Shown in pieces: positions 5,428 to 34,921 of a DNA stretch of 36,990 nucleotides. The stretch is from an uncultured Bacilli bacterium. GTDB taxonomy: Bacteria; Bacillota_I; Bacilli_A; RF39; UBA660. The stretch covers positions 1 through 36,990 of the forward strand of contig CANRLP010000004.1 of the NCBI GenBank assembly GCA_947631515.1, written 5' to 3'. Made by a program: the position numbers and the translations under genes. The notes under the pieces were generated by a model. The model was given only the letters and a program-made list of their open reading frames with translations. It did not search any database and was not told the DNA's origin. Each line of letters begins with the position of its first letter. The stretch's first letter is position 1.

Positions 5428-5703
5428 AAAGAAAGTGGGATTAGCTACCGCTTTTTTATTTTGCTCTTTTAACGTATTTACTTTATTTGAAGTTTTTTTA
5501 CTAGTACTATTTGTATTAACGGTAGAAACATCTTTTTTATTCATTTCTTTTAAAACACTAATCATATTGCGGGCATTAGCTATAGCGGGTTTAGCTCGTT
5601 GATATAAAGGAATAATTTGATTGGCGATTCGCAAAGTTTTAGAGATTCCTCCAATAATTTTGCCAATACTTAAACCTCGAGCAAGACCTGTAACATTAAA
5701 CAT
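5422..5703 (-). CDS. Small YqfQ/VrrA-like protein
   Basis: 93 residues on the minus strand. AAGGTGAA lies correctly in front of the ATG, so it is a real gene. The N-terminal ~55 residues (GLARGLSIGKIIGGISKTL, then ANQIIPLYQRAKPAIANARNMISVL) resemble the short conserved core of YqfQ/VrrA proteins, in which an amphipathic stretch is followed by a Q/P/N-rich 'I-P-L-Y' segment; the remainder is a Ser/Thr/Asn/Lys tail. In Bacillus, yqfQ also lies a few genes from sigA and trmK, which supports the assignment by synteny. The function of the family is unknown to me. The C-terminal tail overlaps the terminator of the opposite operon. The match is by eye only. Confidence 0.5.
   Translation of the reverse strand: MFNVTGLARGLSIGKIIGGISKTLRIANQIIPLYQRAKPAIANARNMISVLKEMNKKDVSTVNTNSTSKKTSNKVNTLKEQNKKAVANPTFFL
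5432..5457 (+). terminator. Terminator of the dnaG-rpoD-trmK operon
   Basis: AAAGTGG (5432-5438) pairs with CCGCTTT (5448-5454, one G-U pair), followed by TTTTTTATTTT. It lies inside the 3' coding end of the convergent YqfQ-like gene, so that gene's last codons double as terminator sequence. Confidence 0.6.
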
Positions 5704-5746
5704 TTTACTTCACCTTGTTTTATTTTATGCTAAAGTACTAAATATT

Positions 5747-5776
5747 TTGCCAATTTAAAAATAAATGTGATATAAT
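5747..5776 (+). promoter_or_regulatory. Promoter of pilC-pilD, overlapping a divergent -35
   Basis: TTGCCA (5747-5752), an 18-base spacer, TATAAT (5771-5776) and an extended TG (5768-5769). The -35 box overlaps, on the other strand, a TTGGCA (5753-5748) that could serve the divergent YqfQ-like gene, with a TAAAAT-like -10 farther along the minus strand. The two genes may therefore share or compete for RNA polymerase. Confidence 0.65.
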
Positions 5777-5808
5777 TTTAAGTAAGAAAATAGGAAAGGG
5801 AAGATGTT

Positions 5809-11922: not shown

Positions 11923-12489
11923 ATGAAAATTAGGACAAGCTTAAAAAAGCATAAAAATATTTTGTTATTTCTTTCTATTCTTTTTATATTTGGCATAATA
12001 ACCGGAATTTTATTTTATTTTAAACAAGATATTGGTCTTAAAAAAACAATTCTTTTAAATATAGATAATGTGTTTAAACATAATGTTTTTTCTCTAAAAA
12101 ATATATTTATTCATATTTGTTTAATTTTAATTATCATTGCTTCTTGTTTTTTATTTTTAGGGACATTAATCTTAATCGGCATTTTATTTTTAGAAGGAAT
12201 AGGGATTGGCTTTCTTATTCCTATGTTATTTTCTCTTTATAAATGGAAATTTATTTTGCATTTTAGTCTTTATTTTATTCTTATAAAAATGGTCTATATC
12301 TTACTTTTATTTTATCTATTTTACTATTTAATTCAATTTCTTAAAAATTATTTTTATTATCTTAAATCAAAGAAAATAAATTTCTTACCATTTTTAAAAA
12401 GAGCATTTTTAATTGGGATTTTTTTAATTATGAATGATTTATTTGTTTATTTTATTTCTAATAAGGTCCTTATTTTTATTTTTCACTAA
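11923..12489 (+). CDS. SpoIIM-like membrane protein
   Basis: 188 residues with about five transmembrane helices. The layout resembles stage II sporulation protein M (DUF95): a short basic N-terminus, a first helix ending FGIITGILFYF, a ~45-residue loop, then helices with the glycine-rich segment LFLEGIGIGFLIPMLFS. Spore-forming Bacillus SpoIIM is ~214 residues and acts in engulfment; non-spore formers also carry relatives of unknown role. GGTGAT precedes the ATG. The mnmA promoter lies over its last codons. The match is to overall pattern only, so it could be another small multi-pass family. Confidence 0.45.
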   Translation: MKIRTSLKKHKNILLFLSILFIFGIITGILFYFKQDIGLKKTILLNIDNVFKHNVFSLKNIFIHICLILIIIASCFLFLGTLILIGILFLEGIGIGFLIPMLFSLYKWKFILHFSLYFILIKMVYILLLFYLFYYLIQFLKNYFYYLKSKKINFLPFLKRAFLIGIFLIMNDLFVYFISNKVLIFIFH

Positions 12490-12493
12490 AACG

Positions 12494-12502
12494 TGTTATA
12501 AT
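12494..12502 (+). promoter_or_regulatory. mnmA promoter (extended -10)
   Basis: TG-T-TATAAT at 12494-12502, 22 bases before the mnmA ATG. No good -35 is seen, as expected for an extended -10 promoter. It is just downstream of the SpoIIM-like stop. Confidence 0.6.
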
Positions 12503-12523
12503 ACATGGCGAAAAGGTGATATT

Positions 12524-13627
12524 ATGACAAAAGTCATTGTCGGAATGAGTGGGGGAGTAGATTCAGCAGTTTCTGCCTATCTTTTAAAAAAAGAAGGATA
12601 TGAAGTAGAAGGTTTATTCATGCGCAATTGGGATTCAATGATAAATAATGATATTTCTGGTAATCCTAATTTAAATAATTATATTTGCCCTCAAGAACAA
12701 GATTATAATGATGCTTTAGAAACTTGTAAAATTTTAGGAATCCCTTTACATCGCATCGATTTTATTAAAGAATATTGGGATGATGTTTTCACCTATTTTT
12801 TAAAGGAATTAGAGCGTGGTCGGACTCCTAATCCAGATCTATTATGTAATAAATATATTAAATTTGATTTATTTAAAAAAGAAGCCCTAAAATTAGGAGC
12901 TGATTATATGGCAACAGGGCATTATGCTAGATGTATTGATAATAAATTATTACGCGGATTAGATCAAACTAAAGATCAAAGTTATTTTTTAGCTATGATT
13001 AGTAAAGAACAATTAAAGCAAGTATTATTTCCAGTTGGTAATTTAACTAAAAAAGAGGTTCGCCAAATAGCTATAGATATTGGTTTGAACGTTGCTAAAA
13101 AGAAAGATTCAACAGGGATCTGTTTTATTGGGGAAAGAAATTTTCAAGATTTTATCAAAAATTATTTAAAACCTAATCCTGGACCTATTATTGATGTTAA
13201 GACTGGAAAAGAAATTGGAACACATCAAGGTTTAATGAACTATACTATTGGACAAAGACGTAATGTAGGAATAAGTGGCGATACGCTAAGACATTATGTT
13301 TGTGGCAAAGATCCGAAAAAAAATATTTTATATGTAGCTTATGGCGATAGTGAATACTTATATAGCGATGCTTGTCTATTAGAAGATGTTAATTTTATTA
13401 GTGACAAGCGTCCCAAAAATTGCACAGCGAAGTTTCGGTACCGGGGAGATGACTATCCAGTATCATTAGAATATTTAGATCAAGATCATGTTAAAGTAAG
13501 TTATCCGGAAAAAGTAAAATCCGTTACTCCTGGACAAGCTTGTGTATTTTATGATAACGAAGAATGTTTAGGATGTGGCATCATTAAAGAAATTTATAAA
13601 AATGGCGAAAAATTATATTATTTATAA
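12524..13627 (+). CDS. mnmA: tRNA-specific 2-thiouridylase MnmA
   Basis: 367 residues, normal length. MnmA adds sulfur to position 2 of the wobble uridine 34 in Lys, Glu and Gln tRNAs, using ATP to adenylate the base. The PP-loop is VGMSGGVDSAVSAYLL (6-21). The catalytic cysteine is C108 in TPNPDLLCNKYIKF, and the persulfide-carrying partner C200 is in STGICFIGERNF. NYTIGQRRNVGIS and the C-terminal beta-barrel ending with TPGQACVFYDNEECLGCGII are family-typical. The ORF is open upstream to 12434, but ATG 12524 follows AAGGTGAT, is downstream of the promoter and starts exactly where family members start. No cysteine desulfurase gene is adjacent. Confidence 0.95.
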   Translation: MTKVIVGMSGGVDSAVSAYLLKKEGYEVEGLFMRNWDSMINNDISGNPNLNNYICPQEQDYNDALETCKILGIPLHRIDFIKEYWDDVFTYFLKELERGRTPNPDLLCNKYIKFDLFKKEALKLGADYMATGHYARCIDNKLLRGLDQTKDQSYFLAMISKEQLKQVLFPVGNLTKKEVRQIAIDIGLNVAKKKDSTGICFIGERNFQDFIKNYLKPNPGPIIDVKTGKEIGTHQGLMNYTIGQRRNVGISGDTLRHYVCGKDPKKNILYVAYGDSEYLYSDACLLEDVNFISDKRPKNCTAKFRYRGDDYPVSLEYLDQDHVKVSYPEKVKSVTPGQACVFYDNEECLGCGIIKEIYKNGEKLYYL

Positions 13628-13706: not shown

Positions 13707-14483
13707 ATGGGAAGATTAAATGAATTATTACAAGAACTAGGAATATCAAAAGTAAGATTAGCTAAATATTTAGGAGTATCTCGCCAAATGGTCTATAATT
13801 ATTTAGAACTTGATGATATTAATAAATGGCCAAAAGAAAAGAAAATTTTATTATTTAAATTATTAGATATTGAAGACGGTGATGAAGGAACACTTAGCAA
13901 AATCAAAGTTACTACCGATTATTTGATGGCCGTAGAATCTCGTTTAAATCAAGGGGTTAAATCTTCAAGTGATATGGATAATTATTTTGATTTAAAAGGT
14001 TTAAATAAAGAAGAACAAACTTTATTAGGGGATATTACTTATTTATTAAAAGAAAAATTATTAGACGAAAGTAAAAAAGAAGAAAATTTTTATGCCATTG
14101 AATATTTATATCATTTATTGCAATCAATTGATAATGTCCCTGAAATTAAATATATTTTAGGTTATATGTCTAAGACTACCGGATTTACTAATCCTGAAGA
14201 ATATCGTTTTAATGAAGATAAACAATTTATTTTTGAAGGTATTTTATATTCTGCTCTAACTCTTTATAATAATGGGGGAGCAAGTCGTAGTAAATTAGCT
14301 GATAGTCATAAACGCTTTGTTCAAGAAATAGAACAAAAAAATGAAGAAAAATTAAGCCGTACGCAACAATTAAATACTATTCGTATCCAAGCTTTAAAAG
14401 AATTAGGTTATACTGAAATGACAGAAGCTAATGCTGCAGAAATAATTGAAAAAATCGCTGAAATAGAATCAAGAAAAGTTTAA
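13707..14483 (+). CDS. Helix-turn-helix DNA-binding protein (XRE-like N-terminus)
   Basis: 258 residues. Residues 3-32 (LNELLQELGISKVRLAKYLGVSRQMVYNYLE) form an XRE/Cro-type helix-turn-helix. The remaining ~220 residues are helical and hydrophilic; they are not recognised, and the last 60 residues (KRFVQEIEQKNEEKLSRTQQ...) look like a coiled coil. A GAGAGGAG ribosome binding site and the strongest-looking promoter of the window precede it, framed by an inverted repeat, so autoregulation is plausible but inferred. A terminator overlaps its last codons. No phage or toxin-antitoxin partner is next to it, so it is probably a chromosomal regulator or nucleoid protein conserved in the lineage. Confidence 0.75.
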   Translation: MGRLNELLQELGISKVRLAKYLGVSRQMVYNYLELDDINKWPKEKKILLFKLLDIEDGDEGTLSKIKVTTDYLMAVESRLNQGVKSSSDMDNYFDLKGLNKEEQTLLGDITYLLKEKLLDESKKEENFYAIEYLYHLLQSIDNVPEIKYILGYMSKTTGFTNPEEYRFNEDKQFIFEGILYSALTLYNNGGASRSKLADSHKRFVQEIEQKNEEKLSRTQQLNTIRIQALKELGYTEMTEANAAEIIEKIAEIESRKV

Positions 14484-15321: not shown

Positions 15322-15360
15322 ACTCCCCTTTTACCTTTTAAAGCCAAAAGAGGAGGGAGT
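15322..15360. terminator. GC-rich hairpin after the radical SAM gene
   Basis: ACTCCC (15322-15327) pairs with GGGAGT (15355-15360), continued by C/G and TTTT/AAAA pairs with an AGGA bulge. No T run follows on +; on the minus strand it is followed by TTTAATTTATT. It may be a weak terminator or an RNA 3'-end stabiliser. Confidence 0.4.
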
Positions 15361-15605
15361 ATATATAATATATTGAATTAAAATAAAGATGTGTAGAAGC
15401 GTTCGAAAATAATTTAGATGGATAATTCATCATCTCAAATTCAAATACAGAACGTATAATAGTCTAAAATTTTTATATTTAAATTAATTTTTTTATAAGT
15501 TTAATATTTATATAAAGATGAATAAATAGTAAAATAAGTATAGTATATTAAGATTATATATAATAAATAATCCATAATTAATCAATCAAAAATCATATTT
15601 ATATA
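15361..15605. other. AT-rich intergenic stretch without a recognised gene
   Basis: The gap between the radical SAM gene and the convergent amidotransferase gene is 328 bases, the longest gene-free stretch apart from the T-box leader region. I see no ORF with a ribosome binding site. A short mixed-composition island (about 15385-15455) and an isolated TATAAT (15455-15460) without a -35 box are the only marks. The right end carries the dif-like sequence listed separately. Confidence 0.5.
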
Positions 15606-15633
15606 GTTTCATATAATATATGTTATGTTAACT
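15606..15633 (+). other. dif: dif-like Xer recombination site (candidate)
   Basis: Left arm GTTTCATATAA, centre TATATG, right arm TTATGTTAACT. Against my memory of the Bacillus subtilis dif (left ACTTCCTAGAA, centre TATATA, right TTATGTAAACT) this gives 7/11, 5/6 and 10/11 matches, with the 11-6-11 layout. The better-conserved right arm is the one bound by XerD. The site lies in a non-coding gap, where gene orientation changes from mainly + to mainly -, and 1.6 kb from xerD. The AT-rich background raises the chance of a false match. Confidence 0.45.
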
Positions 15634-15649
15634 TGTATAAAAACTAATA

Positions 15650-16276
15650 TTAAATACTATCTATAAAAGCATCAAATAATTGTTTAGAATAATAATCATG
15701 TAAAATACTCTCTGGATGCCATTGTACTCCAATAAAAAAACGTTTAGATTTGGCTTCCACACCTTCGATAACTAAATCTTCAGATACGGCTGTAATACTT
15801 AAATTAGTTTTTAAAATATGTTCTTTATGACGACTATTAACGGGAATATTATCTTTTTTTAATATGCTAAATAACTTACTATCTTTCTTTATATTAATAT
15901 CATGAACATATTTATTACTACTTTGATGAAAAGTATTTTCTAAATAATCAATCTTACCATCAAAAGCCATAGAAATCTCTTGCATACCTAAACATATACC
16001 TAGGGTTGGTAAATCTTTTTCATATAAATAATTGACAATTTTTAAATCGATTTCATGTAATTCTGAGCCACCTGGTAAAATTATGCCATCACAAAGACTA
16101 ATACTCTCCTCTACTCTCTTCAATTCTTCATATACATTATTATAAAAACAAATTGGTATAGCAATTACGTTTATTTCATATTGCCGAAGAAAAATTAATA
16201 AATCATCCCGAAAAGCTTGTAAAGAATTGTTATTTTCACTCTTATAATCTCTTAAAATAATTCCGATTGTTTTCAT
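15650..16276 (-). CDS. Class I glutamine amidotransferase-like protein (peptidase C26, PuuD-like)
   Basis: 208 residues, slightly shorter than PuuD. The catalytic cysteine is in LGICLGMQE and the His-Glu pair in QWHPES; an oxyanion-type glycine turn is in DGIILPGGSELHE. Enzymes of this family hydrolyse gamma-glutamyl amides such as gamma-glutamyl-GABA, and relatives act as glutaminase subunits; with no polyamine genes nearby the true substrate cannot be told. The N-terminus (MKTIGIILRDY) is typical. TAGGAGC precedes ATG 16276. It follows the ZIP transporter gene by 12 bases, so the two form an operon, although a functional link is not obvious. Confidence 0.82.
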   Translation of the reverse strand: MKTIGIILRDYKSENNNSLQAFRDDLLIFLRQYEINVIAIPICFYNNVYEELKRVEESISLCDGIILPGGSELHEIDLKIVNYLYEKDLPTLGICLGMQEISMAFDGKIDYLENTFHQSSNKYVHDINIKKDSKLFSILKKDNIPVNSRHKEHILKTNLSITAVSEDLVIEGVEAKSKRFFIGVQWHPESILHDYYSKQLFDAFIDSI

Positions 16277-16288
16277 TTTAGCTCCTAT

Positions 16289-17041
16289 CTATAAGAAAAA
16301 ATGATTAATTAAAATAAGTCCTATTCCTAATAAAAATCCTTTAATAATAGCATGTTTTTCTTGATATTTTAAAGTTTCAGGATAAATTTCTTCAATAGAA
16401 ATGGTAATCATTATCCCTGCTACTAATAATAAAACCATACTTATTAGTTCATTAGTAATATAATTTTTGAATAATAAATAAGCTAATATCGCTCCTAATG
16501 GTTCTGCAAAACCAGATATAAAAGTTTTGGTTAGAGCTTCACGCTTATTTTTAGTAGCATAATATATAGGTACGGCGATACTAATTCCTTCAGGAATATT
16601 ATGAAGCATGATCGCCAGTCCAAGATGCAAACCCATACTCATATCTTGATAGGAACTTAAGAATGTAGCAATTCCTTCGGGGAAATTGTGTAACATTAAA
16701 GCAATCATATTTAAAATACCTAACTTGTATAAATTACTACAATCTTCCTTAGCTTTTGATATTTTTGATATTAATATTTTTATAGCTATAATACCTGTAA
16801 AAATCGATAAAATAGCTAATAAAAGGCCTTTTTTTAAATCTTCATGAAGCAAAGTATTTAAGGAATTAGGTATTAAATCGGTAAGACTTATTCCAATCAT
16901 AATAGCTAAAGAAAAACTTAAACAAAACGTTATAAATTTATTAATATTTTCCTTTTTAATCTTTAAAAAGACAATAAATGCTCCAATTACCGTCGAAAGA
17001 CCAGCTATGGTAGAAACTAGTAAAGGACCAATTATTTCCAT
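16289..17041 (-). CDS. ZIP-family metal transporter (ZupT-like)
   Basis: 250 residues with eight hydrophobic segments. The two signature metal-binding motifs are clear: HNFPEGIATFLSS in TM4 and HNIPEGISIAVPI in TM5, which line the metal path in ZIP proteins. Bacterial ZupT imports zinc and other divalent metals (iron, manganese) across the cytoplasmic membrane. A cytoplasmic loop around residues 92-108 is Lys-rich and, unlike many ZIPs, has no histidine cluster. The ribosome binding site is AGGGGTGAT before ATG 17041. I see no convincing Zur- or Fur-type operator in the 70 bases upstream. It is co-transcribed with the amidotransferase gene. Confidence 0.88.
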   Translation of the reverse strand: MEIIGPLLVSTIAGLSTVIGAFIVFLKIKKENINKFITFCLSFSLAIMIGISLTDLIPNSLNTLLHEDLKKGLLLAILSIFTGIIAIKILISKISKAKEDCSNLYKLGILNMIALMLHNFPEGIATFLSSYQDMSMGLHLGLAIMLHNIPEGISIAVPIYYATKNKREALTKTFISGFAEPLGAILAYLLFKNYITNELISMVLLLVAGIMITISIEEIYPETLKYQEKHAIIKGFLLGIGLILINHFFL

Positions 17042-17112
17042 AGTATCACCCCTATACTTTATGAATTAAGTTTTATAAAAAGTACATAATATAAGTAGGA
17101 GGTAATAGATTT

Positions 17113-17262
17113 ATGAATAGAAATAGTAATAATAATTCTAGAAATAACTCTAGAAACAATCAAAAAGAACAAAATTCTAGAAATAACAGAAATAATAATC
17201 AAAGTAAAGAAAATTCTAGAAATAATAATAGTAGATCTAGCAGAAACGAACAAAGTCGTTAG
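17113..17262 (+). CDS. 49-residue Asn/Ser/Arg-rich small protein
   Basis: A short + strand gene with one of the best ribosome binding sites of the window (AGGAGGT, 17097-17103) and a strong terminator 14 bases after the stop. The product contains almost only Asn, Ser, Arg, Gln, Lys and Glu; the unit NSRNN recurs four to five times, encoded by repeats of the DNA word TCTAGAAATAA. There is no hydrophobic segment and no cysteine, so it should be unstructured, basic and cytoplasmic; nucleic-acid binding is a guess. I do not recognise a family. An ORF on the opposite strand is a by-product of the repeat. Confidence 0.7.
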   Translation: MNRNSNNNSRNNSRNNQKEQNSRNNRNNNQSKENSRNNNSRSSRNEQSR

Positions 17263-17275
17263 TTAGAAACTTAAA

Positions 17276-17307
17276 AAGGAAACTACTTAAGGTTTCCTTC
17301 TTTTTTT
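17276..17307 (+). terminator. Strong terminator after the small NSR-rich gene
   Basis: AAGGAAAC (17276-17283) pairs perfectly with GTTTCCTT (17292-17299), followed by CTTTTTTT. It overlaps the last codons of the convergent xerD. Confidence 0.85.
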
Positions 17308-18176
17308 GCTCGAGGATGTTTTTCATATTCTTGTTTAATTTGTTCATTTAATAAATGAGTATATATTTGGGTTGTTGAGATATCACTATGTCCTAAAAGT
17401 TCTTGAATAATTCGTAAATCAGCTCCATGATGAAGAAGATGAGTTGCATAAGAATGGCGCAAAGTATGAGGACTAATATCTTTTTCAATTCCTTTACTCT
17501 TCGCAATTTGTTTTAAGTTTTTAAAAAAGCCTTGCCTAGATATTTTATTTCCAAAATTATTAATAAAAAGATACTCGCTATCTTTTTTCTTTAATAGTAG
17601 ATTACGATATTCGTTAATATAAATTTTTAAATATTTAACTGCTATATCCGAAATGGGACTGATTCTTTCTTTACTCCCCTTCCCTTCAACCCGAATAAAA
17701 TCTTCTTGTAAATCAATATTATTTAATTTTAAATTAATTAATTCGGAAACTCTAATGCCACTAGCATATAAAAGTTCTAACATTGCTTTATTTCGATAAT
17801 CATAAGGAGTATTTAAAGGAATATTTAATAAATTATCAATTTCTTCTTCAGTTAAATAATTAGGCAACTTTTTCGATATTTTAGGAGATTCAATAGTTTC
17901 ACAAGGATTTTCAGCTATTAAATTTTCTAAAACTAAAAAGGCAAAAAAGTTTTTAATAACGGTTAGATAATGGGCTCTACTCTTTTCAGCCATTTGATCA
18001 TTAAATTTTAAATAGTTCTCAATATCGCCTCTTTTTAAATCTTTGATTGATTTGCCATTTAAAAATATTTCAAAACGATTTAAATTGTCTTTATAAGATA
18101 AAATAGTATTCTTAGATAATTTTCGTTCAAACAATAAATAATCTAAATATTTATTATAATAATCTTCATTTGTCAT
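17283..18176 (-). CDS. xerD: Site-specific tyrosine recombinase XerD
   Basis: 297 residues. With XerC it resolves chromosome dimers at the dif site. The N-terminal SAM-like core-binding domain spans about 1-90, and the catalytic domain carries R142 (ASGIRVSEL), K166 (VEGKGSKER), H237 and R240 (HTLRHSYATHLL), H263 (LGHSDISTTQ) and the nucleophile Y272 (IYTHL). All six catalytic positions are present. I chose ATG 18176, which has TAGGAG seven bases upstream; the frame is open 15 codons further but without a site. A TATAAT (18195-18200, minus strand) precedes it. Distinguishing XerD from XerC by eye is not certain. It stands alone, 1.6 kb from a dif-like sequence. Confidence 0.9.
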   Translation of the reverse strand: MTNEDYYNKYLDYLLFERKLSKNTILSYKDNLNRFEIFLNGKSIKDLKRGDIENYLKFNDQMAEKSRAHYLTVIKNFFAFLVLENLIAENPCETIESPKISKKLPNYLTEEEIDNLLNIPLNTPYDYRNKAMLELLYASGIRVSELINLKLNNIDLQEDFIRVEGKGSKERISPISDIAVKYLKIYINEYRNLLLKKKDSEYLFINNFGNKISRQGFFKNLKQIAKSKGIEKDISPHTLRHSYATHLLHHGADLRIIQELLGHSDISTTQIYTHLLNEQIKQEYEKHPRAKKEGNLK

Positions 18177-18194
18177 AATGATACTCCTATAATT

Positions 18195-18261
18195 ATTATA
18201 TAGAATTTTTGTGTTAAACAAAAGCCAAATCTCTTTATTTATGTCTAAAAAATGATATAAT
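18195..18261. promoter_or_regulatory. Divergent xerD / rarA promoter region
   Basis: Minus strand: TATAAT at 18200-18195 for xerD, with a weak -35. Plus strand: extended -10 TG-A-TATAAT at 18253-18261 for rarA, 18 bases before its TTG start codon. Confidence 0.5.
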
Positions 18262-18279
18262 TATAGATGGTGATAAAAA

Positions 18280-19482
18280 TTGGAATTATTATCAAATAGT
18301 TTGAGGCCAACCAAGTTAGAAGATATAATCGGTCAAGAACATTTAATTGGACCTAATAAAGTATTATCTAATATGGTTCGAAATAATAAAATTTTTTCTT
18401 TTATTTTATATGGAAAACCAGGAACAGGTAAAACTAGTATAGCTAATGCTATCGTTAATGAATTAAATCGTCCTCACCGTTTTTTAAATGCGACAATTAA
18501 TAATAAAAAGGACTTTGATATAGTTATTGAAGAAGCTAAAATGGCAGGCGAAATGATTTTAATTATGGACGAAATCCATCGATTAAACAAAGATAAACAA
18601 GATTTACTTCTTCCTTATATAGAAAATGGTTTAATCATTTTAATTGGTCTTACAACATCTAATCCTTATCATAAAATAAATCCAGCTATTCGCAGTCGAG
18701 TGCAAATTTTTGAAGTTCATGATCTTACTTCTAAAGATATTGTTAAAGGTCTTAAAAAAGCTTGCGAGCATTTAGAAGATATTCAAATAGATCAAGAAAG
18801 TTTAGAATATATTGCCCAAATTTCTTCTGGAGATTTCCGAAGTGCTATTAATACTTTAGAAGTATGTTATTATTCAACTAGTGAAGATAAAAAAGTAGAT
18901 ATTAATTTAATAAAATCAATTAATAGTAAGCCCGTATTTTTTCATGATAAAAATGAAGATGGCCATTATGATGTTTTAAGTGCTTTTCAAAAGTCTATTC
19001 GGGGTAGTGATGTAGATGCCTCTCTCCATTACCTAGCTAGGCTTTTAGAAGCTGGGGATTTAGATAGTATTTATCGAAGAATGAGTGTTATTGCTTATGA
19101 AGATATTGGTCTTGCTAATCCTTCGATTGGTCCCAAAGTTATGGCGGCCATTCATGCTGCCGAATTAGTAGGATTGCCTGAAGCTGTTATTCCTCTGGGA
19201 ACAGTTATTACCGAAATGGCTTTATCACCTAAAAGTAATAGTGCTTATTTAGCCATTAACGCTGCTTTAAATGATATTAGATCTGGTAATACGGGAAATG
19301 TACCAAATCATATTAAAACATCTAGTACAACCTATAAATATCCTCATGATTATAAAAATGATTGGGTTTTTCAAGAATATTTACCAGAAAATTTAAAAGG
19401 AAAAAAATATTACCAAGCTAAAAATAATAAATACGAAGCTAATATAAATAAATTGTATAATGAAATGAAAGGTGGACATTAA
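18280..19482 (+). CDS. rarA: Replication-associated recombination AAA+ ATPase RarA (MgsA)
   Basis: 400 residues. RarA/MgsA acts at stalled replication forks and interacts with single-strand-binding protein. Walker A is GKPGTGKT (45-52), Walker B ILIMDEIHRL (D97-E98), sensor 1 TTSNP, and an arginine finger follows in NPAIRSRVQIF. The C-terminal half contains the family hallmarks: AFQKSIRGSDVDASLHYLARLLEAGD, RRMSVIAYEDIGLANP and NHIKTSSTTYKYPHDYKNDWVFQEYLP. The start codon is TTG 18280 with GGTGAT upstream; no better start is available. gpsA follows after two bases, so both are probably one operon. In Bacillus this gene (yrvN) is near yrvM/tcdA, as here. Confidence 0.94.
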   Translation: MELLSNSLRPTKLEDIIGQEHLIGPNKVLSNMVRNNKIFSFILYGKPGTGKTSIANAIVNELNRPHRFLNATINNKKDFDIVIEEAKMAGEMILIMDEIHRLNKDKQDLLLPYIENGLIILIGLTTSNPYHKINPAIRSRVQIFEVHDLTSKDIVKGLKKACEHLEDIQIDQESLEYIAQISSGDFRSAINTLEVCYYSTSEDKKVDINLIKSINSKPVFFHDKNEDGHYDVLSAFQKSIRGSDVDASLHYLARLLEAGDLDSIYRRMSVIAYEDIGLANPSIGPKVMAAIHAAELVGLPEAVIPLGTVITEMALSPKSNSAYLAINAALNDIRSGNTGNVPNHIKTSSTTYKYPHDYKNDWVFQEYLPENLKGKKYYQAKNNKYEANINKLYNEMKGGH

Positions 19483-19484
19483 AA

Positions 19485-20462
19485 ATGAAAATAGGAATTA
19501 TTGGAACAGGAGCTTTTAGTACCTCTATCGCTTTATTACTTGCTTCTGATAAAAATAAAAACATTACAATGTGGAGTGAAAACGAAAAGTTAGTAGAAAG
19601 TTTTTTAGAAACTAAAAAATTAAATACAATATTTAAAGATAAAAGTATCCCTAAAAATATCAAGGTAACTAATAATTACGAAGAAACTTTAAAGGAAGCT
19701 GATGTAGTATTTTTATTAACTAGTATTAATTATTTAAACGATGTTTGTAAAGATATTAAGCATCTTATTTCTCCTAATATCCCAGTTTATATTGGAACTA
19801 AAGGTATTGCTGCTAATAGCAAAAAATTTGTCCCGGAAATAGTAACTAAACATTTAAAAAATAAAATAGCTTTATTTGGTGGTCCAACATTTGCAAATGA
19901 TGTGGTGGCAATCGACCCAATTGGTTTTGTTATTGCTAGTAAAGATAAAAAATGTCGTGCTATTTTTAAAAGTTTATTTGCAACAAATAATGTCCGGATT
20001 GAAGAATCTTCTGACTTAAATGGTGTTGCTTTATGTAGTTGCCTTAAAAATATTTATGCAATAGGTTCTGGTATCATAAGTGGTTTAAAATATCATGAAA
20101 GTACCAATGCCTTATATTTAACTTATGTTTATCAAGAATTATTTAATATTTTGTATAAAATGAATTCATCTTTAGAAACTTTAAATGGTTTAGGGGGCTT
20201 AGGAGATTTAATTTTAACATGTAATTCACCTCAAAGTAGAAATTATAGTTATGGAGAGAAAGTGGCTAAAAAGACTAGTAAAACAGCATTAGAAAAATAC
20301 TTAAAAGAAAACACAGTTGAAGGACTAAATACGTTGGAAGCTATTTATCCAATGTTCAAAAGAAAGCATCTTAAATGCCCAATAATTTACTCTCTTTACT
20401 CTATTTTATATCAAGATGAAAATCCTCAAAAATTAATTGATTTAATCATTAAAAAAGGCTAA
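19485..20462 (+). CDS. gpsA: Glycerol-3-phosphate dehydrogenase [NAD(P)+]
   Basis: 325 residues. It reduces dihydroxyacetone phosphate to sn-glycerol 3-phosphate for phospholipid synthesis. The N-terminal dinucleotide-binding motif is GIIGTGAFSTSIA (4-16), followed by the family words TKGI and GGPTFANDV. The catalytic lysine is in CSCLKNIYAIGSGI, where the usual 'ELxGALKN' reads 'ALCSCLKN', and the GLGGLGDLILTC motif near the C-terminal domain is intact. The sequence is more diverged than the neighbours but all key positions that I can place are present. It overlaps tcdA tail-to-tail by four bases within a bidirectional terminator. Confidence 0.92.
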   Translation: MKIGIIGTGAFSTSIALLLASDKNKNITMWSENEKLVESFLETKKLNTIFKDKSIPKNIKVTNNYEETLKEADVVFLLTSINYLNDVCKDIKHLISPNIPVYIGTKGIAANSKKFVPEIVTKHLKNKIALFGGPTFANDVVAIDPIGFVIASKDKKCRAIFKSLFATNNVRIEESSDLNGVALCSCLKNIYAIGSGIISGLKYHESTNALYLTYVYQELFNILYKMNSSLETLNGLGGLGDLILTCNSPQSRNYSYGEKVAKKTSKTALEKYLKENTVEGLNTLEAIYPMFKRKHLKCPIIYSLYSILYQDENPQKLIDLIIKKG

Positions 20463-21163: not shown

Positions 21164-21343
21164 TAAAAACCCAAAGGAAAGTCTGCTTTGGATAAAAACC
21201 CGCTCACGCGAGGTGGGCATCACATGAACTGTTTTAGGATCCTAGCAACACTTAATGGGCTAGTATTCTACACCACAATCCAATTAGATTCCCAAGAATA
21301 TCCATAGTCGGTTTTATATAAAAACAAACTATATCCTTCAGGC
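21164..21343 (-). ncRNA. ssrS: Candidate 6S RNA
   Basis: A ~180-base transcript bounded by a promoter and a terminator and containing no ORF. The 5' end (CCTGAAGGA, 21342-21334) can pair over its full length with the 3' end (TCCTTTGGG, 21178-21170; two G-U pairs), and ATAAAACC pairs with GGTTTTTAT inside it: a long closing stem. A terminal stem CTAGC/GCTAG (21260-21240 region) sits at the other end, with little pairing between, as in the 6S open-promoter mimic. The same 3' arm also forms the terminator CCAAAG...CTTTGG. In Bacillus the 6S-1 gene also lies beside yrvM (tcdA). I see no SRP, tmRNA or RNase P motifs. Confidence 0.65.
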
Positions 21344-21349
21344 ATTATT

Positions 21350-34901: not shown

Positions 34902-34921
34902 ACAAATTCCTCCTTTTTGAT

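Follow-up and report, generated by a model that had tools for sequence, protein, structure and literature searches.

A dif site near xerD at a gene-polarity switch in an uncultured small-genome Bacilli bacterium

Results

Gene content of the locus

The window, a stretch of 36,990 bp that makes up the whole of contig C4 in the draft genome of an uncultured Bacilli bacterium, carries a 28-bp dif element (GTTTCATATAATATATGTTATGTTAACT) within an AT-rich intergenic gap (Table 1). Left of this gap, 15 genes lie on the plus strand and one on the minus strand, followed on the right by two plus-strand and 18 minus-strand genes, in agreement with the switch in gene direction described in a previous sequence-only reading of this DNA. 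The gap had also been described as the longest one free of genes, which proved to be wrong: its 328 bp are surpassed by the 374 bp between positions 34902 and 35275. The interval at 5428-5808 is longer still (381 bp) but includes a weak minus-strand ORF of 93 aa.

Table 1. Features of the window around the dif site.
Feature	Position	Strand	Evidence
mnmA, conserved terminus neighbour	12434..13627	+	TIGR00420, 425 bits (cut-off 237); synteny
Gene for an uncharacterised 258-aa protein with N-terminal XRE-like HTH, flanking dif	13707..14483	+	
AT-rich intergenic gap with dif (328 bp), at gene-strand switch	15322..15649	.	
dif site, 28 bp, 11-6-11 layout	15606..15633	+	Sole genome match, family matches, PWM, footprint
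Putative XerC-binding arm, GTTTCATATAA	15606..15616	+	dif alignment and family PWM
Central hexamer TATATG, probable place of strand exchange	15617..15622	+	Layout; function proposed from dif/Xer literature (PMC2731167, PMC5357621)
Predicted XerD-binding arm, TTATGTTAACT	15623..15633	+	10/11 positions as in B. subtilis; family consensus
xerD, tyrosine recombinase, 1.65 kb from dif	17283..18221	-	TIGR02225, 344.5 bits (cut-off 329.6)
rarA/MgsA-type AAA ATPase gene, conserved terminus neighbour	18280..19482	+	Pfam MgsA_C; synteny
6S RNA, near rarA and beside a ThiF-family gene	21164..21347	-	RF00013, 59.9 bits

The gene order mnmA-HTH gene, dif, (GATase, Zip) xerD-rarA is shared by this genome with most of its family. 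In the mnmA frame, homology to MnmA begins at residue 33. Genes of the relA/SpoT, hisS and aspS types and the 6S RNA gene are located to the right of dif and mnmA to its left. In Bacillus, rarA, mnmA, relA, hisS, aspS and 6S RNA form one neighbourhood, and dif may be read as dividing its counterpart here.

Sequence and uniqueness of the dif site

dif is the DNA signal at the replication terminus at which bacteria resolve a fused pair of circular chromosomes. The element in the window is composed of two imperfect inverted arms of 11 bp that flank a hexamer, with coordinates and layout exactly as previously proposed. A recount also reproduced 22 of 28 positions shared with B. subtilis dif, including 10 of 11 in the XerD arm, and yielded 24 of 28 positions shared with a degenerate Firmicutes consensus. 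The same element was the top site in the window when compared with B. subtilis dif, the Firmicutes consensus or E. coli dif. Its XerC arm is poorer than its XerD arm (GTTTCATATAA, compared with ACTTCCTATAA in the family).

When the window was Markov-shuffled 200 times, an identity of 22/28 to B. subtilis dif arose once, and 200 shuffles at gap-like AT content gave it seven times, so that the raw identity alone is only moderately surprising and constitutes weak evidence in DNA so rich in AT. The assignment is made decisive by the family evidence, namely uniqueness in the genome, occurrence in relatives, separation by PWM score and a conservation footprint. A search of the genome (980-kb draft, 99 contigs, 90.6% complete) with the dif pattern at up to two mismatches returned a single match, which is the site in the window; one copy is thus present in the draft, and the assembly contains no better dif site elsewhere. 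The pattern was matched in 106 of 145 family genomes, which almost all belong to different genera, with 14 hits for the reversed-pattern control. On a PWM built from 62 dif sites of the family, the window site scored 32.7, the next different place in the window 4.4, and the same site read on the opposite strand 4.6, making its orientation unambiguous. Of 20 additional genomes without a pattern match, most yielded a diverged site on the PWM, again next to the HTH gene. When the gap was aligned among 14 close relatives, as the earlier reading had suggested, a sharp 28-bp footprint emerged, over which the majority base averaged 0.93 (93%) as against 0.51-0.62 (51-62%) in the flanks. A literature search for RF39 together with dif returned nothing.

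In three cases (G087:C26:1286/6372, G055:C16:4311/4723 and L127:2300/3982), two dif-like sites share a contig at a spacing of 0.4-5 kb and possibly delimit elements integrated by Xer.

GC skew and the replication terminus

A sign change of the GC skew, which had been named as a test of the site, was seen in the window, and the skew falls across dif in 62/62 loci of the family. When these loci were oriented by their dif sites, the mean skew was +0.172 to the left and -0.166 to the right; the drop recurred in all 56 loci of a second collection. Within the window, the cumulative G-C count culminates at 20340 (551), just above a local peak at 15552 (539). The slightly higher peak is due to rarA and gpsA, which lie on the plus strand, and with two such peaks the skew of the window alone fails to pinpoint the dif gap. 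At four-fold sites (window positions 15606-20462), the skew tracks the gene strand and not the replication strand, and skew and gene polarity therefore count as one line of evidence rather than two.

Chromosome-wide skew was sampled in a relative (G094, main contig of 1.04 Mb), which stands for the fragmented draft of the organism itself. Values were below zero at 1-72 kb, above zero at 95-642 kb and again below zero further on; one sampled stretch read N. The 642-kb switch, which runs from positive to negative and lies opposite the other switch or origin, is situated in a short gap bordered by mnmA-HTH on one side and Zip-rarA on the other, and this gap is the homologue of the gap in the window. 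The proposed terminus is supported by the skew of the family loci and, at the chromosome-wide level, by homology with G094. These data support dif as a mark of the terminus region in which dimers are resolved, which refines the earlier inference that both forks meet here; termination has been argued to occur near dif, not at dif (PMC3025954).

Octamers resembling the SRS of B. subtilis (GAGAAGGG) pointed toward dif in a ratio of 29:0 in the family loci, and G5A3 octamers generally in a ratio of 714:112. This polarity is strong and agrees with the presence of dif, but is inseparable from purine bias or ribosome-binding sites.

Xer recombinases, FtsK and the linkage of xerD to dif

Two Xer-type tyrosine recombinases are encoded in the genome. 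The product of the window gene, which scores above the XerD cut-off, reached 299.6 on the XerC model (cut-off 335.15) and 111 bits on the XerS model (cut-off 267). For the second recombinase, encoded on contig C21 upstream of a pyruvate-phosphate-dikinase-like frame (named from sequence), XerC was the best model with a score of 332, slightly below the cut-off of 335.15. An FtsK/SpoIIIE protein with a gamma domain (102.9 bits, 739-aa frame) is encoded on contig C9 of the same genome (G000).

xerD was located at most 10 kb from dif in 37 of the 46 family loci with full flanks, and, counting every locus with a hit, the median distance was 2.5 kb. In 45 of these 46 loci, the HTH gene was likewise within 10 kb of dif (median 0.4 kb), and its stop codon was 5-70 bp from dif in 19/57. 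In four loci (L069, L073, L074 and L085), the HTH gene stays near dif, with mnmA not found within 10 kb.

In seven drafts (G012, G019, G024, G109, G115, G141 and G143), mnmA, the HTH gene, dif, xerD and a close rarA match were all absent. An XerC-only clade was considered for these genomes and rejected: with mnmA and the close rarA match gone as well, a terminus segment missing from the drafts is likelier than a biological loss.

The HTH protein and inversions around dif

The HTH protein was found in 133 of the 145 family genomes, as a single copy in nearly all of them, and its C-terminal part is strongly conserved. Neither a named family nor a solved relative was found for it. Its AlphaFold2 model is all-helical (pLDDT 86, pTM 0.49); comparison with the PDB gave no whole-fold match, and only the N-terminal XRE-type HTH was recognised. 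Weak matches in other families of the class lie away from dif and mnmA/rarA in the loci that were read.

Ten of 56 loci (genera) showed dif in the opposite orientation with respect to the HTH gene, and xerD, wherever it was found, had switched sides along with the flipped site. In pairwise alignments, both flanks were inverted, while a block of 28-60 bp around dif was not (e.g. L058/L095 and L042/L073). Two further flip pairs are L071/L038 and L046/L055. On a tree of the HTH protein, nine changes of orientation were needed, at least six of which are forced by well-supported branches. A flip would not need to harm function, because a dimer always carries two identical copies of dif.

Joint absence of Xer and dif in one lineage

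Searches of G094 detected neither XerC nor XerD, the only integrases found being three longer ones, and dif was absent by both pattern and matrix search. Its terminus locus (L140, G094:C3:630000-649999) retains mnmA, the HTH gene, Zip, rarA and gpsA in place as well as an intact skew switch. In a second genome of this lineage (G408, locus L207, JAFZWF010000018.1), no tyrosine recombinase and no dif at the same place were found, and mnmA, the HTH gene, Zip and rarA are likewise kept; its DNA identity to G094 is 80-86% over the longer shared blocks. Both genomes are metagenome drafts, and one stretch of G094, around 850-870 kb, is masked and reads N. The joint loss of site and enzymes with the neighbours kept fits what a dif site predicts. 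The HTH protein was considered as an obligate partner of Xer/dif and ruled out, since it is kept where Xer and dif have been lost.

Discussion

The 28-bp element is almost certainly an ordinary chromosomal dif site in the terminus region of an uncultured small-genome Bacilli bacterium. By analogy with known dif systems, homologous recombination would fuse sister chromosomes into a dimer, and XerC and XerD would bind the 11-bp arms of both dif copies. FtsK/SpoIIIE, acting as a septal DNA pump guided by the terminus-pointing G-rich motifs, would bring the two copies together. Its gamma domain would then switch on XerD, and strand exchange over the central hexamer would give two monomers.

A more far-reaching idea is that the HTH protein, dif and XerD form a dedicated heritable terminus module, in which the HTH protein is a new terminus-binding factor and dif is able to flip in place. 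Local supply of XerD or organisation of the terminus might, for example, be what holds such a module together, and the HTH protein, given its retention where Xer and dif are lost, would serve to organise the terminus and not as an Xer cofactor. We consider this idea rather improbable.

Very unlikely is an attachment site of an IMEX-like mobile element that uses host Xer, with the chromosome's own dif located elsewhere. Elements of this kind are known at dif (PMC5357621), and some family genomes (e.g. G087 and G055) contain two dif-like sites, but the present draft holds a single one, its housekeeping neighbours are constant across the family, and no integrase or phage-type gene besides xerD was found among the immediate neighbours tested; moreover, such an element would integrate at the real dif anyway. 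There is equally little to commend a local inversion, rather than a replication terminus, as the cause of the polarity switch. Although the window is a single 37-kb contig whose cumulative skew is slightly higher at 20.3 kb, the identical polarity change is seen in 62/62 family loci, and in G094 the switch of the whole chromosome falls at the homologous locus. A chance look-alike without a role in an AT-rich gap, for which the shuffles leave some room, can be dismissed in view of family-wide conservation at a syntenic place, to which uniqueness in the genome, the 106 matching relatives with few reversed hits, the footprint and the co-loss with the recombinases add further weight.

As a chromosomal dif, the site locates the terminus of replication in a large family of uncultured gut Bacilli. 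Such a landmark is of use in orienting and joining fragmented genomes and in reading growth rates from coverage. The lineage lacking Xer and dif and the repeated flips are natural experiments that bear on the importance of dimer resolution and of the orientation of the site.

dif is a known kind of element; the linkage of xerD, the in-place flips and the Xer-less lineage are less ordinary. Linkage of recombinase gene and site has been put forward as a possible hallmark of single-recombinase systems (PMC5357621). The two classical recombinase genes are scattered, and dif was not tied to particular ORFs in the set analysed (PMC2731167); xerC is mostly found near dif and xerD near the origin (PMC3025954). 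The present family, with two recombinases and a canonical site, departs from the usual arrangement through its xerD linkage, which runs counter to the stated hallmark.

The site resembles the dif/XerCD system of Firmicutes (B. subtilis, with CodV/RipX; predictions in PMC3025954) in its 28-bp 11-6-11 organisation with a strong XerD arm, in its single copy at a skew switch and in the presence of XerC, XerD and an FtsK with a gamma domain, and differs from it in having xerD linked to dif. It shares with XerS/difSL of streptococci and lactococci and with XerH/difH of epsilon-proteobacteria the closeness of recombinase gene and site at the terminus. Those modules, however, consist of a single recombinase and a divergent site, whereas here dif is canonical, XerC is present as a second recombinase, and the linked gene encodes XerD. 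G094 and G408 resemble reduced genomes without Xer and dif, such as those of insect endosymbionts (PMC2731167), in that recombinases and dif are missing together, but unlike in those genomes the gene order flanking the terminus is intact, which makes the loss visible against its neighbours.
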